Of a stretch of 64,000 nucleotides of DNA, positions 4,742 through 18,588 are shown in pieces. Positions within the stretch are counted from its first letter, which is position 1; each line of letters opens with the position of its first letter. The notes below the pieces were generated by a model. That model was given only the letters and a program-made list of their open reading frames with translations. It was not told the DNA's origin and searched no databases. The translations under genes were made by a program, and so were the position numbers. Origin of the DNA: Marine Group I thaumarchaeote (GTDB lineage: Archaea > Thermoproteota > Nitrososphaeria > Nitrososphaerales > Nitrosopumilaceae); assembly GCA_013390765.1 (NCBI GenBank), contig JACAST010000001.1, forward strand, positions 1 to 64,000, written 5' to 3'.

Positions 4742-5581
4742 ATGACTTTTGAAGCCGTATCATACGAGTCTATCCCGCATGCGCTGATATCTGGAATTGC
4801 CATTTCCCTGCTTTGCAGTGTCGTAGGGCTGTTTCTGGTTTTGAGAAAGTTTTCCCTGTTTGGGGATGCCCTGGCACACTCTGCATTTGGGGGCGTGGCA
4901 TTTGGTCTTTTCATTGGAATTTACCCATTATGGATTGCATGTGCAGTAGCCATACTTAGCGCACTGGGACTCAGTAAAATCCGCCAAAAATTTGATATTT
5001 CAGGCGATGCAATAGTTGCAATCTTACTGTCAACCGGACTGGGTGCCGGAGTAATATTGGTCAGTTTAACGGAGGATTTTGAATTTCATGACATTGAGGA
5101 ATTCTTGTTTGGTTCAGCGATAGTTGATACTCAAAATGTTGTTACAATACTTGCACTGGCTGGCGCAATCCTAACCATTCTTTTCTTTACATACAAGAAA
5201 ATACTATACTCTACATTTTCTGAAGAGCAGGCCAAAGCCTCTGGAATTCCCGTGGAAAAGATGAGTTATCTCCTAATCACCATGGCTGGCGTCACCGTTG
5301 TCATATCGATGCAGCTGGTCGGAGTGCTCCTAATTTCCGCATTATTTGTACTCCCCAACGTTTCGGCCATGCTTTACGCACGCTCCTTCAAGCAGACAGT
5401 GATTCTCTCAATGTTGTTTGCCGTATCCGCTACTGTTTCAGGCATAATCATGTCATATCAATTTGAAATTGCACAAGCTGGATGCATCGTACTGGTTGCC
5501 GCTGCAATCTTTGTTGGCTCGCTTGTTGCAAAGGGTTCTGGGCTGGTGAAGACGGCTGGGATATTGGCAAAACGTGCCTAG
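4742..5581 (+). CDS. Metal ABC transporter permease (ABC-3 family, ZnuB/MntB type)
   Basis: A 279-residue membrane protein with eight or nine hydrophobic helices. It has the family features of ABC-3 permeases: SLLCSVVGLFLVLRKFSLFGDALAHSAFGG near the N terminus and QLVGVLLISALFVLPNVSA in the second half. It forms the channel for the ATPase encoded just upstream (six bases apart). The stop codon lies in a 10-bp sequence, CGTGCCTAGA at 5573-5582, that recurs at the end of the next gene. Confidence 0.93.
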   Translation: MTFEAVSYESIPHALISGIAISLLCSVVGLFLVLRKFSLFGDALAHSAFGGVAFGLFIGIYPLWIACAVAILSALGLSKIRQKFDISGDAIVAILLSTGLGAGVILVSLTEDFEFHDIEEFLFGSAIVDTQNVVTILALAGAILTILFFTYKKILYSTFSEEQAKASGIPVEKMSYLLITMAGVTVVISMQLVGVLLISALFVLPNVSAMLYARSFKQTVILSMLFAVSATVSGIIMSYQFEIAQAGCIVLVAAAIFVGSLVAKGSGLVKTAGILAKRA

Positions 5582-5582
5582 A
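5573..5582 (+). repeat. 10-bp direct repeat, left copy
   Basis: CGTGCCTAGA covers the last codons and stop of the permease gene. An identical copy lies at 6657-6666, over the stop codon of the HNH gene. The two copies bracket a segment of about 1.08 kb that carries only the HNH gene, as a target-site duplication would. A chance match of this length at both ends is unlikely but possible. Confidence 0.5.
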
Positions 5583-5612
5583 TCAAGCTCATATTCCATG
5601 AAGACATAATCT

Positions 5613-6665
5613 GTGATATTGGTAAGATGTTCCATTAAGAATTGTAAAAATAATGTCAAATATACCACTGAGATGCTTTGCAATGTTCACTATTTGCAAA
5701 AATGGAAAAAGGAACGCCGTAACCCTCAACCTTTGAAAGTTCCAAGAAACCCTTATCGACCCAGATTATTGCACTGCTCTATTAAGAATTGTAAAAATAA
5801 TGTCTATGCGACAGGACTTTGCAAAAATCACTATATGCAAAAATGGAGAAAGGCTAATCCAAAACTAGCTAAAATTAACGCAGCAAAGTCTTACCGAAAA
5901 AATAAGAAAAAAATACTTGCGAAAGATAAAGTGTATAGAACAAAAAATCGTAAAAAAAGAAATAAGCAAAAAAGAGAGCATTATGTTAACAATCGAGAAA
6001 GATTAGTAAAAGAAAAACGTGAACGCTATCATTCAGATCCAGAAAAATATACTGCAATGCAAAGAAAGTCGACCAAGAAACACAGAACAAAGATCTTGCT
6101 AAAAAGAAGGGAAGAATTTGCAGGTTTCAGGCTTGATGTTTTAACGTATTATTCAAAGGGAACTCCCAAATGCAAAAACTGTGGAATAACTGAGTACGCT
6201 TTTCTTCAAATTGATCATATCTATGGGCGTAAGGCAATGGGTCATAAAACAAAAAACACAATATCGGTTTATCGAGAATTGCATAAAAAACATCCAGAAG
6301 GCTTCCAAGTTTTATGTGGTAACTGTAATCTTATGAAAGAAATTAGAAGGCATAAAACCCACTCAAAACATCCTAATGCAATAAAATCTCGTTATTACAA
6401 AAAATTAGATAAAAAACAGGTGCTGGAACATTACTCTAACGGCGAGTTAAAATGTGTCTGTTGTGGTTTTGCAGAAATTGATGGTTTGACTATTGACCAT
6501 ATTGAAGGAAGGAAAAAAATGGGACATGACAAAACAATCCATGCCACAAAAATTTATGCTTGGATAAAGAGAAATAATTTTCCAAAAGGATTTCAAACCT
6601 TATGTATGAATTGTAATCACGCAAAAGGCAGACTTGGCAAATGCCCACATCAAAATCGTGCCTAG
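5613..6665 (+). CDS. Tandem HNH nuclease-like protein with duplicated zinc knuckles
   Basis: The 350-residue, strongly Lys-rich protein is built from two duplications. Residues about 5-35 and 54-85 are zinc knuckles with a shared CSIKNCKNNV core and an LCxxHYxQKW end. A basic linker follows. Residues about 188-240 and 270-340 are two HNH modules, each with a CxxC pair, a (Q/T)IDHIxGRKxMGH core and a final LCxNCN. Such proteins are typical of phage and homing-endonuclease families. GTG at 5613 is the only reasonable start, with TTG at 5619 as the alternative. A 10-bp direct repeat surrounds the gene. It probably nicks or cuts DNA and may be selfish. Confidence 0.88.
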   Translation: MILVRCSIKNCKNNVKYTTEMLCNVHYLQKWKKERRNPQPLKVPRNPYRPRLLHCSIKNCKNNVYATGLCKNHYMQKWRKANPKLAKINAAKSYRKNKKKILAKDKVYRTKNRKKRNKQKREHYVNNRERLVKEKRERYHSDPEKYTAMQRKSTKKHRTKILLKRREEFAGFRLDVLTYYSKGTPKCKNCGITEYAFLQIDHIYGRKAMGHKTKNTISVYRELHKKHPEGFQVLCGNCNLMKEIRRHKTHSKHPNAIKSRYYKKLDKKQVLEHYSNGELKCVCCGFAEIDGLTIDHIEGRKKMGHDKTIHATKIYAWIKRNNFPKGFQTLCMNCNHAKGRLGKCPHQNRA

Positions 6666-6666
6666 A
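6657..6666 (+). repeat. 10-bp direct repeat, right copy
   Basis: CGTGCCTAGA again, overlapping the stop codon of the HNH gene and matching 5573-5582 exactly. Both genes therefore end with the codons for Arg-Ala and TAG. This is what one expects if the HNH segment entered by duplicating its target. Confidence 0.5.
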
Positions 6667-6717
6667 AACCAGTACAGCGATCAAACTTATCTGAAAGTAG
6701 ATTGATCACAGATCTAC

Positions 6718-7566
6718 ATGGGATGGTTCAGCAGAAAGGCAAAAAGAGCCTTGGAAGCATACAGTAAACAAACGCCTGAAGATGCGGAACAAGCAAAAAA
6801 GGAGATGGCTGCAAAAGAGGAACGAAAACGCCTGCGTTTTGATCTTGAAAAACTATTAGACAAGTATGACATGAATGATCTAAATAATTTTTGTTCAAAG
6901 TATCTTGGAGAAGCGCCTACATCCAGAGAAATACTGCAAGATGGAACGGAGAGAGAGCTTAAACCAAATAGACATACGTTTGTGAATTTTATACTAGAAT
7001 ACTATGATAAAGGGCAACTAAGAGCCGAACAAATAAAAGATTTCTCACTCAAACATAGAATCGTAACACCTAGTTTTTTTTCAGATGAAACAGAAAGTAA
7101 AGTTGGGAATGAGAATGAATTAAATGATATATTGGATGTAATTGATGAAAAATTTAAGCCTGAAATAATCATAGATGAAAAAGAGTTACAAGGTCAGCTT
7201 GCTGTATTTTTAAAAGCCGTGTATCCTGACAAGAAGATTGAAAGAGAAGTAACAACAAAAGGTGGCGATAAAATTGATATTTTAATTGACGATAACTATG
7301 TTTTGGAATTAAAAGTTCCATCTGGTAAAGATTCGCTAAGAAGTCTATCTGCACAAATTGAAGAATATATGGAAGAATTTCCATTACTGGCTGTTGTTAT
7401 AGCTGACAAGTCAGATTTAGTAAGTGATCAGGATGATAGTGAGTTTTATGACCCAGATCTTGAGAAGGGACTTACCAAAAAAATTATTGAATATGCAGAC
7501 AAATACAAAGTCAAGTATGGTATTAAGACTTTGATTTTCTCCGTTAAGAAAAGAAGCAAAAAATAG
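6718..7566 (+). CDS. PD-(D/E)XK nuclease-like protein
   Basis: The 282-residue product has a charged helical N terminus (residues 1-60), a middle helical region, and a C-terminal domain that fits the restriction-endonuclease fold. Residues 180-200 read KGGDKIDILIDDNYVLELKV, giving Asp187 and the Glu197-x-Lys199 pair in adjacent strands, preceded by a helix with conserved-looking Glu and Gln. This is the classical PD-(D/E)XK arrangement. No partner methylase is present. It follows the HNH gene by 52 bases and may have come with it or been the original downstream neighbour. The substrate is unknown. Confidence 0.65.
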   Translation: MGWFSRKAKRALEAYSKQTPEDAEQAKKEMAAKEERKRLRFDLEKLLDKYDMNDLNNFCSKYLGEAPTSREILQDGTERELKPNRHTFVNFILEYYDKGQLRAEQIKDFSLKHRIVTPSFFSDETESKVGNENELNDILDVIDEKFKPEIIIDEKELQGQLAVFLKAVYPDKKIEREVTTKGGDKIDILIDDNYVLELKVPSGKDSLRSLSAQIEEYMEEFPLLAVVIADKSDLVSDQDDSEFYDPDLEKGLTKKIIEYADKYKVKYGIKTLIFSVKKRSKK

Positions 7567-7582
7567 GATGCTGGATTTTTTC

Positions 7583-7649
7583 ATACTGTCAAATCACCAG
7601 TTTTTCTAGGCGTAAAATGTCAGTTTTACTGACAAAACGGAACTAATTT
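7583..7649 (-). repeat. 67-bp direct repeat, copy 1
   Basis: This sequence matches 8358-8424 at 63 of 67 positions, in the same orientation. It covers the stop codon and 3' side of the PepSY-like gene (minus strand). It contains a perfect inverted repeat TGTCAGT-TTT-ACTGACA and a further TGTCA. On the minus strand both copies start at or within a few bases of a stop codon, so a shared 3' end element or terminator is one reading; a small dispersed element is another. Confidence 0.85.
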
Positions 7650-8357: not shown

Positions 8358-8424
8358 ATACTGTCAAATCGGCCATTTTTCTAGGCGTAAAATGTCAGTT
8401 TTACTGACAAAACGGAACTAATTT
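8358..8424 (-). repeat. 67-bp direct repeat, copy 2
   Basis: The second copy of the repeat at 7583-7649. It lies between the end of the microprotein chain (stop at 8430) and the promoter of the PepSY-like gene. The four mismatches are clustered within a 6-base window; the palindrome TGTCAGT-TTT-ACTGACA is kept intact. Confidence 0.85.
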
Positions 8425-8429
8425 GAATT

Positions 8430-8522
8430 CTATTTTCCTTTCCATTTTTTCCTGCCAATCATGTAAATAATCCAGCCGCCAGCAAGACAGCCAATGCACA
8501 GGACAGCAATTAACTCGTTCAT
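8430..8522 (-). CDS. Micro membrane protein, 30 residues (third of chain)
   Basis: An ATG frame encodes 30 residues: a short acidic N terminus (MNEL), one hydrophobic helix with two Cys and a Gly-Gly-Trp turn, and a strongly basic end (GRKKWKGK). That predicts a single-pass membrane peptide with its C terminus in the cytoplasm. It follows the 26-residue frame at 8535-8615 with a 12-base gap. The function is unknown. Confidence 0.45.
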   Translation of the reverse strand: MNELIAVLCIGCLAGGWIIYMIGRKKWKGK

Positions 8523-8534
8523 GATGCGACCACA

Positions 8535-8615
8535 TCAGCTCAAAAATCTAATAATAAAAATTGTTGCGAGAATGCCGACGCCAATCGAAGCTAGGAGTTG
8601 TTTTCTTGTTATCAT
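8535..8615 (-). CDS. Micro membrane protein, 26 residues (second of chain)
   Basis: The frame encodes MITRKQLLASIGVGILATI followed by FIIRFLS, that is a basic N terminus and one membrane helix. Its ATG overlaps the TGA of the preceding frame (ATGA at 8612-8615 on the minus strand), a sign of translational coupling. The coupling is the main reason to believe it. The function is unknown. Confidence 0.45.
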   Translation of the reverse strand: MITRKQLLASIGVGILATIFIIRFLS

Positions 8616-8701
8616 TTGAAACCTAGAAAAGCCAGTATTGATAAAATAATTATCACAATTGGCACAACGTAATACTTGCGAATTGGATTTGTTTTGTCCA
8701 T
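8612..8701 (-). CDS. Micro membrane protein, 29 residues (first of chain)
   Basis: The frame encodes a hydrophilic basic N terminus (MDKTNPIRKYY) and one helix rich in Val, Ile and Leu ending FLGFK. It starts 18 bases after the stop of the zinc-ribbon/RGG gene on the same strand and overlaps the next frame by four bases. The order zinc-ribbon gene, then three single-helix peptides, looks like one transcript. The function is unknown. Confidence 0.45.
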   Translation of the reverse strand: MDKTNPIRKYYVVPIVIIILSILAFLGFK

Positions 8702-8719
8702 TATACTAGGATAATTTTT

Positions 8720-9070
8720 TTAGTTTCTTCTATGACTTTGAAAACATTCGCTGCAATATACTGGTTTGTCACCTTTTGGCTCGAATGGAACTTCACATTC
8801 CTTGCCGCAGTCTCCACAAGTAGCTTTGTGCATTTCACGTGGTCTTCGGTCAAATCCTCCTCTTCCGCCAGAACCTCCTCTTCCGCCAGAACCTCCTCTA
8901 CCTCCAAATCTTCCACCACCTGAGCCTCCTCGGCTTTCTGGTTTGTGTTTCGGAAAACATTCATTACAATAGACTGGTTTGTCACCTCTTGGCTCGAATG
9001 GAACTTGACATTCATTACCGCAGTCTCCACAAGTCGCCTTATGCATTTCTCGTTCTCCTCTGTATGACAT
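8720..9070 (-). CDS. Duplicated CxxC zinc-ribbon protein with RGG-rich linker
   Basis: The 116-residue protein has two near-identical zinc modules at about residues 9-41 and 83-113. Each has CGDCG, a Cys-x-Val-Pro-Phe-Glu-Pro core, GDKPVYC and a final CxxCF pattern. Between them is a Gly-Arg linker (GGRFGGRGGSGGRGG) of the RGG type found in RNA-binding proteins. This matches the small CxxC-x17-CxxC zinc-ribbon family seen in archaea and candidate phyla. An RNA-binding role is likely but inferred. A reading frame offset from this one (8701-9030) is a shadow. Confidence 0.85.
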   Translation of the reverse strand: MSYRGEREMHKATCGDCGNECQVPFEPRGDKPVYCNECFPKHKPESRGGSGGGRFGGRGGSGGRGGSGGRGGFDRRPREMHKATCGDCGKECEVPFEPKGDKPVYCSECFQSHRRN

Positions 9071-9145
9071 TTTACTACTTCTAATTTTTTATCTTAAAAG
9101 ACCTCTAATATATCTAATGGAATAAAATAGGTACAATGGGATATT

Positions 9146-9579: not shown

Positions 9580-9993
9580 ATGGCTAGCGAACCAGAAAGA
9601 ATCGAGGAGGTTAGGAAGTACATTGAGGCAACCATTACTGAAATAGACAGCCATACTGAGGACATGGAAAAACTATTCAAAATGGACAGGTGGAGTAAGG
9701 ATAGCGCATTGTATGAAATTATTATCAACTCGTACGAGCGCCATAGGAATACGCTAAAACACATTCAAAAAATTGTAGATGGCGGCAAGGTGGAAAGTGG
9801 TCTCTATACGCTCAGCGCCAAGTCGGAGATTGACATGGTCAAGGAAAGGATTGAAAAATTGGAAAATGATTTAGTTAATTCAGAATCAAAATTAAGCGAC
9901 AGCGAAATTCTAGATGGATTTAGCCAGATAAAAAGTGGCGAAGCTGGCAGAATGTCGGAACGCAAGCCTAAAGAATCAGACCAATCGGATTGA
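9580..9993 (+). CDS. Coiled-coil hypothetical protein
   Basis: The 137-residue protein is helical, acidic and has a heptad-rich segment (KERIEKLENDLVNSESKL, about residues 88-105) typical of a coiled coil. The N-terminal half contains a helical pair with His and Glu residues. The C terminus is hydrophilic. It starts five bases after the HEPN-like gene and overlaps the next gene's region, so the three are probably co-transcribed. No family recognised. Confidence 0.65.
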   Translation: MASEPERIEEVRKYIEATITEIDSHTEDMEKLFKMDRWSKDSALYEIIINSYERHRNTLKHIQKIVDGGKVESGLYTLSAKSEIDMVKERIEKLENDLVNSESKLSDSEILDGFSQIKSGEAGRMSERKPKESDQSD

Positions 9994-9998
9994 TCAAG

Positions 9999-10367
9999 AT
10001 GTCGGATTCTACTGCCTCTGAACTGTTGCAAGAATGGACCAGTGCAGTAAAAAGCGGTGATCCAAAGCAGGTTACCAGTCTTTATCGGGATGATGGGATT
10101 CTGTTGGGAACCTTTTCCAACAAGGAAAGGGTCGGGCATGAATTGATCCTTGAATATTTTGAAAATTTGTTAAAATCTCCCGTTGAGGTTCAGATTGTAT
10201 CAGAAAACCCTCATGTTTTTGAGTCTGCTGCTGTAAACACCGGTCATTACAACTTTGTAACAGGTGGCAAGACGATTAATGCAAGGTTCTCGTTTGTCTA
10301 TCACAAAAGTAATGGCGAATGGAAAATTACCTCACACCATTCTTCAGTAATGCCTGAGACTGGCTAG
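9999..10367 (+). CDS. SnoaL/DUF4440-like (CaMKII association-domain fold) protein
   Basis: The 122-residue protein has the NTF2-like pattern of SgcJ/EcaC and DUF4440 proteins: LLQEWTSAVKSGDPKQVTSLYRDDGILLG at the start, then GHYNF and a final SFVYHKSNGEWKITSHHSS. The fold forms a small cone that binds ligands; no catalytic role can be assigned. ATG at 9999 is preferred over TTG at 9990. It follows the coiled-coil gene almost without a gap. Confidence 0.85.
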   Translation: MSDSTASELLQEWTSAVKSGDPKQVTSLYRDDGILLGTFSNKERVGHELILEYFENLLKSPVEVQIVSENPHVFESAAVNTGHYNFVTGGKTINARFSFVYHKSNGEWKITSHHSSVMPETG

Positions 10368-18027: not shown

Positions 18028-18588
18028 ATGAATTCTGAGAATAAAAAAAGTGATGCGGAAGATATACTTTCTGAATTTCAAAAAACTCATGGAGATGAAC
18101 CTGTTGAAGAACCGCAGGCAAAGGCTGAACCTGTTGAAGAACCACAGGCAGAGGCTGAACCTGTTGAAGAACCACAGGCAGAGGCTGAACCTGTTGAAGA
18201 ACCACAGGCAGAGGCTGAACCTGTTGAAGAACCACAGGCAAAGGCTGAACCTGTTGAAGAACCACAGGCAAAGGCTGAACCACAGGTAGAATCTGAACCA
18301 GCGCATCAAACACATAACATGATTTTCATAGGAACAAAACCAATTATGTCATATGTGACTGCAACTTTGACACAACTTGCATCTTTACCGATTGTCACAA
18401 TAGCAGGGCGTGGGAAACGTATTACTCAGGCAATTGATGTTTCTCAAATGATTGTAAAACGAATGAATGAAGTTGGTTATGAAATTGGTGATGTTCGTAT
18501 ATCTTCTGATTCATTAGTATCTAAGGATGGTAAAAAACGCAGTGTGTCAAAAATTGAAATTGATTTAAAAAATTCTTCCGGTCATTAA
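18028..18588 (+). CDS. alba: Alba chromatin/RNA-binding protein with acidic repeat tail
   Basis: The C-terminal 90 residues are an Alba domain: MIFIGTKPIMSYVTATL, then TIAGRGKRITQAIDVSQMIV, with the basic residues that contact nucleic acid. The N-terminal 90 residues are unusual for Alba: a Lys/Asp start followed by six copies of a ten-residue unit, EPVEEPQAEA or EPVEEPQAKA (residues 24-83). The tail is acidic, so it could mask the DNA-binding face or recruit partners. Ordinary Alba proteins are about 90-100 residues. The repeats are exact 30-bp units in the DNA. Confidence 0.93.
   Translation: MNSENKKSDAEDILSEFQKTHGDEPVEEPQAKAEPVEEPQAEAEPVEEPQAEAEPVEEPQAEAEPVEEPQAKAEPVEEPQAKAEPQVESEPAHQTHNMIFIGTKPIMSYVTATLTQLASLPIVTIAGRGKRITQAIDVSQMIVKRMNEVGYEIGDVRISSDSLVSKDGKKRSVSKIEIDLKNSSGH
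18097..18276 (+). repeat. Six 30-bp tandem repeats inside alba
   Basis: Six consecutive 30-base units start at 18097, 18127, 18157, 18187, 18217 and 18247. They differ at only a few bases (CCGCAGGCAAAGGCT against CCACAGGCAGAGGCT). The near-identity at the DNA level points to recent expansion by slippage or unequal exchange, so copy number may vary between strains. Confidence 0.95.

Follow-up and report, generated by a model that had tools for sequence, protein, structure and literature searches.

The window analysed here is a stretch of 64,000 nucleotides from a Nitrosopelagicus-type Marine Group I thaumarchaeote, with Marine Group I thaumarchaeotes and Candidatus Nitrosopelagicus as its nearest records, and the locus at positions 8430-8701 raises the question of whether three very short open frames set behind a zinc-ribbon gene are genes at all and, if they are, whether their products work together. 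The frames, here called m1, m2 and m3, and the elements around them are as follows, in the order in which they would be transcribed.

9091-9100, minus strand: TATA-like box CTTTTAAGAT, about 26 nt upstream of the zinc gene ATG, recognised from the sequence and the general layout of archaeal promoters.
8720-9070, minus strand: zinc-ribbon/RGG gene, with two CxxC-x17-CxxC domains and a Gly/Arg-rich linker between them (PF23477, TIGR04272; E about 4e-39).
8612-8701, minus strand: m1, 29 codons (29 aa), MDKTNPIRKYYVVPIVIIILSILAFLGFK, a single-helix microprotein with the conserved N-terminal motif NPIR(K/R)YYVVPIVI, predicted N-in.
8535-8615, minus strand: m2, 26 codons (26 aa), MITRKQLLASIGVGILATIFIIRFLS, a single-helix microprotein joined to m1 by an ATGA overlap.
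8430-8522, minus strand: m3, 30 codons (30 aa), MNELIAVLCIGCLAGGWIIYMIGRKKWKGK, a single-helix microprotein with the basic C-terminus GRKKWKGK, predicted C-in.
8378-8424, minus strand: a 47-49-nt direct repeat with a short, weak hairpin (z -1.97), directly 3' of m3.

All three frames begin with ATG and lie head to tail, and their lengths, strand and coordinates agree with the original prediction, as do the ATGA overlap of m1 with m2 and the 18-nt gap between the zinc-ribbon/RGG gene and m1. The description of the chain as three overlapping frames was inexact, in that the overlap is confined to m1 and m2 while m2 and m3 are separated by a gap of 12 nt. Each frame contains one hydrophobic 18-mer (Kyte-Doolittle mean 2.77 in m1, 2.25 in m2, and 2.30 in m3) between charged ends, in keeping with the single membrane helix that had been proposed for each; the helix call was made by hydropathy alone, and by that measure all three have the form of small single-helix proteins, namely one hydrophobic helix in fewer than 50 aa. 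A frame of 109 aa at 8701-9030 (minus strand) was discarded as a gene, being the shadow of the zinc gene.

The zinc-ribbon/RGG gene is probably the first gene of the transcript. Between it and m1, m2 or m3 there is insufficient room for a further promoter, and because of this spacing the three microgenes would be co-transcribed from the zinc gene promoter. The direct repeat behind m3 has a second copy at 7601-7649, where the next gene (227 aa) has its 3' end, and is present in the closely related genome G026; the other fetched regions that were searched held no copy. This sequence is possibly a shared 3' end or terminator. Rfam returned tRNAs alone, two of them, both in neighbouring loci, and known RNA families were accordingly rejected as an explanation.

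Whether such a chain could arise by chance was assessed with 5,000 dinucleotide shuffles of the 323-nt region, none of which yielded a three-frame ATG chain (the longest was 1); when all start codons were admitted, a chain of two was seen once (n = 5,000). The expectation that the chain is unlikely to be accidental was thus upheld. The 64-kb window holds one chain of three such frames, that of m1-m2-m3, and the window genome (G000) has another series of three helix peptides at C44, so that chains of this kind exist beyond the window.

Frames broken in close relatives had been named as the sign that would tell against these genes, and none was seen in G026 (contig as in strain D17, JACATA010000006.1), which keeps the whole m1-m2-m3 chain intact at about 95% nucleotide identity to the window across most of the common stretch, with 4 nt differences within the aligned parts of m1-m3. 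The full chain is shared by just two, closely related genomes, and the conservation of the chain as such is therefore weak evidence. A more demanding comparison was made with the m3 copies that lie behind the zinc gene, a set chosen by position and free of protein-search bias: between G000 and G007, 23 nt differences produced 7 amino-acid changes, against a mean of 12.7 when the substitutions were placed at random (P 0.0004), and the same test gave P 0.002 against G024 and P 0.003 against G010. Computed on 21-28 codons, and biased downward in that most homologues were found by protein search, pN/pS was 0.12-0.23 for m3 (window copy against close relatives), 0.13-0.26 for m1 (against non-sister relatives), and about 0.5, a weak signal, for the window copy of m2 against island copies, among which it ranged from 0.14 to 0.9 on few changes. 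These values indicate purifying selection that is strong for m1 and m3 and weaker for m2. The proposed comparison of starts and synonymous substitutions across genomes therefore brought out a silent-site bias in m1 and m3 and little of one in m2, for which, with the window copy near 0.5, the coding case rests mainly on copy number and on protein-level conservation of length, start and sequence. On the shuffles, the pN/pS values and the m3 positional test together, the frames are very probably real protein-coding genes, coupled and encoding single-helix membrane peptides, as had been suggested. That they are functionless chance frames, to which their shortness and the AT-rich region might point, is scarcely credible given the failure of the shuffles to produce a chain, the silent-site bias (which refutes the idea on present evidence for m1 and m3), and the family members at other loci, which are free of internal stops and keep their start, length and stop.

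The alignment with G026 also breaks at 5571 and 7603, and the intervening stretch of the window (5572-7602, about 2.03 kb), with two genes, one of HNH type (350 aa) and one (282 aa) that has a weak DpnII-MboI-like match, is absent from G026 at the same place; it looks like a recent insertion in the window genome or a loss in G026. Elsewhere in the window, a gene at 18028-18588 was seen to carry a run of PVEEPQA(E/K)AE repeats followed by a C-terminal part that resembles an Alba domain, judged from its translation only.

A profile search that covered 250 genomes of the family matched m1, m2 or m3 convincingly in 10 of the 31 genomes of the genus. The m1 family was found in G000, G026, G010 (two copies), G030, G007 and G011; the m2 family in G000 (two copies, in the window and at C44), G026 (two copies), G010, G030, G003 and G024; and the m3 family in G000, G026, G010, G023, G024, G007 and G029, with m3-like paralogues at C76 of the window genome and in G026. 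Outside the genus the same search returned only weak matches (E 0.003 or worse), mostly inside long frames, which were not counted, and a wider spread of the families was dropped for that reason. The window genome is 63% complete (0.88 Mb in 85 contigs) and many of its sister genomes are incomplete too, so absence from any single genome should be read cautiously. In an SMC tree from which the fragmentary rows G023 and G029 were left out, all six carriers whose SMC sequence was complete grouped in a single clade (support 100%), and the families were absent from every genome outside it that had a complete SMC sequence.

The three microgenes m1, m2 and m3 belong to three separate, unrelated-looking and lineage-restricted families. 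Searches of Pfam and NCBIfam placed no family at or near cut-off for any of them, the PDB held no solved relative (best E 0.72), and no published description of the genes was found in the open-access literature. A viral origin of the microgenes was rejected, as the profiles of m1, m2, m3 and a zinc-finger microprotein of the islands described below found no relative in IMG/VR and the zinc-finger microprotein had none among phage records.

If the three peptides formed one complex, their genes might be expected to keep company. The full set occurs together only in G000 and G026. In G007, G024 and G010, m3 lies directly behind the zinc gene, about 30 nt downstream, and m1 and m2 are not there; in the first two the order is zinc gene, m3 and then a DoxX gene, and in G010 m3 is followed, through an ATGA overlap, by a small zinc microgene (m4). 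The other genomes of the genus with a readable zinc gene have no helix microgene behind it. Further copies of m3 stand behind an aquaporin gene in G029 and elsewhere in G023, and the m3-like gene at C76 of the window genome is behind that of ribosomal protein L6. The m2 family was found behind purE (named from its translation) in G030 and G003, followed by the small zinc microgene (m2-m4) in G024, and in microgene islands of G010, G026 (C27) and G000 (C44), and m1 was found behind a large cupredoxin-like surface protein (likewise named from translation) in G007 and paired with another helix peptide in G030. The tail DDMxDLDHY was read at L195 6219-6368 (minus strand), L196 2710-2877 (plus strand) and L185 1250-1378 (minus strand); it marks another one-helix microprotein, which in G007 and G024 sits between homologues of the window genes 9580-9993 and 9990-10367, a position at which the window lacks it, and the L6-linked m3-like gene has the tail as well.

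The dispersal and recombination of these families are evident from the placement of their recognisable members. The proposal that m1, m2 and m3 together build a small hetero-oligomeric membrane complex, to which the zinc-ribbon protein might dock, draws on their tight spacing and ATGA overlap, which imply co-translation, and on the intact chain in two genomes, but we consider it unlikely. The three genes were not found to be inherited together; in most carriers, many of them incomplete genomes, the families stand apart beside different neighbours, with m1 and m3 at different places and no m2 found in G007, and m2 and m3 at different places and no m1 found in G024 (both incomplete). That they reassort so freely speaks against a fixed complex of three parts, and the suggestion of a single complex was not supported. 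The simplest history is instead one in which m3 came to lie behind the zinc gene before m1-m2 entered the space between the two, an event placed in the ancestor shared by G000 and G026; with insertion as the direction of change, we infer from this that the chain is a late assembly.

The explanation that we favour, with moderate confidence, is that m1, m2 and m3 are three genuine lineage-restricted microgenes forming the tail of the zinc-ribbon/RGG transcript, assembled late into a chain, each peptide of which would tune a larger membrane protein rather than contribute to one complex. The microgenes would be read at the end of that transcript, with m2 translated by coupling to m1, and each peptide would insert singly into the membrane, m1 and m2 N-in and m3 C-in by the positive-inside rule. 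Each would then most probably bind and tune a larger membrane protein, a regulatory role suggested by analogy with the bacterial single-helix proteins CydX, AcrZ and KdpF, which bind a large membrane partner (PMC4325964, PMC7267776, PMC10903887). Like m1-m3, these proteins are of about 30-50 aa, with one hydrophobic helix and charged flanks, are often placed at an operon end, and are easily missed in annotation; unlike m1-m3, whose neighbours vary freely and whose distribution is limited to one clade, each is tied to one complex, and no sequence similarity between the two groups was found in Pfam, NCBIfam or PDB. YohP of Escherichia coli, a lone-helix peptide of 27 aa which shows that such a molecule can be inserted through SRP and alter cell physiology (PMC7549839, PMC12719787), is nearly equal in size to m2, with which it shares a lone membrane helix, but is bacterial and stress-regulated. 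Among archaea, the 61-aa protein sP36 of Methanosarcina mazei offers a precedent, as it regulates a membrane transporter, AmtB1 (PMC10714827); sP36 is twice the length of m1-m3 and moves between cytoplasm and membrane, and homology to it was checked at the level of family libraries only. The neighbours of m1-m3 vary, and there is no constant candidate partner among them.

A multicopy, lineage-restricted pattern is typical of type I toxins, and the microgenes could be read as small hydrophobic toxins or stress peptides of that kind, which would perturb the membrane on induction. The usual profile of such toxins includes short peptides with one hydrophobic helix and charged ends (PMC8309996), which m1-m3 match, as they do in being multicopy and restricted to a lineage, and a conserved 14-bp hairpin lies 3' of five m2 copies (L179 8546-8602, L181 9406-9462, L183, L189 and L191), with paired changes at L181 that keep the stem relative to the other copies; the window copy of m2 is without it. 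In contrast to these toxins, m1-m3 are placed within ordinary operons (behind the zinc gene, aquaporin and, for the m3-like copy, L6) with no room for a promoter of their own; no antisense gene was noticed in an unsystematic look at these loci, and the low pN/pS of m1 and m3 also counts against a toxin role, which we regard as improbable.

One member of the m1 family departs from the stand-alone form. In G011 the m1 sequence NPIRKYYVVPIV opens a protein of 143 aa that carries an SNase (staphylococcal-nuclease-like) domain, so that the m1 helix is joined to a larger domain there, and its position at the N-terminus makes an N-in topology of m1 likely. Where the N-terminus of an SNase homologue from another genome was read, the anchor was a different one. 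These observations would suit a reservoir of helix modules for signal anchors, or the leftovers of such anchors, in which the microgenes had no fixed peptide function; we find this doubtful, since the stand-alone m1 copies stop soon after the helix, show low pN/pS across several genomes, and have no visible downstream remnant.

Helix, zinc-finger, acidic-helical and basic microgenes are also grouped in islands, at C44, C7 and C64 of G000, C3, C27 and C31 of G026, and C1 of G010. Clustering of small frames from 27 fetched loci and the window recovered the m1, m2 and m3 sets among others, together with 12 acidic helical peptides, 9 C2H2-like peptides and 6 short basic peptides, counts that cover clear families only, many clusters being shadow frames. 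The C2H2-like family had matches in 48 of the 250 genomes and is thus older. A promoter-like repeat, TTTATTCCWGAATRTCCACAATTTTTAAGAT, recurs between island microgenes, at many of them; it was found at 17 sites in 6 of the 31 genomes of the genus (reversed control, 0) and is absent from the window. Integron-like cassettes were considered and set aside, as this repeat, with a TATA-like box about 28 nt before the ATG, looks more like a promoter than a recombination site. We tentatively suggest, as a possibility short of an even chance, that one clade of these streamlined marine ammonia oxidisers carries an expanded microgene kit (single-helix, zinc-finger, charged helical and basic), housed in islands marked by a common promoter-like repeat and, for m2, by the 3' hairpin, and that its members are copied to operon junctions in ever-new combinations, shuffling into small-protein operons and membrane anchors.

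The small membrane peptides known so far were mostly described singly, in model bacteria, and genomes near 1 Mb normally lose unneeded DNA. Here three new families can be traced while they are combined and recombined beside host genes, in an abundant group of ocean ammonia oxidisers with genomes near 1 Mb. If the island picture is true, it would document in nature the way in which small-protein operons come together, and the current annotation of these genomes may omit a class of genes that is under selection.
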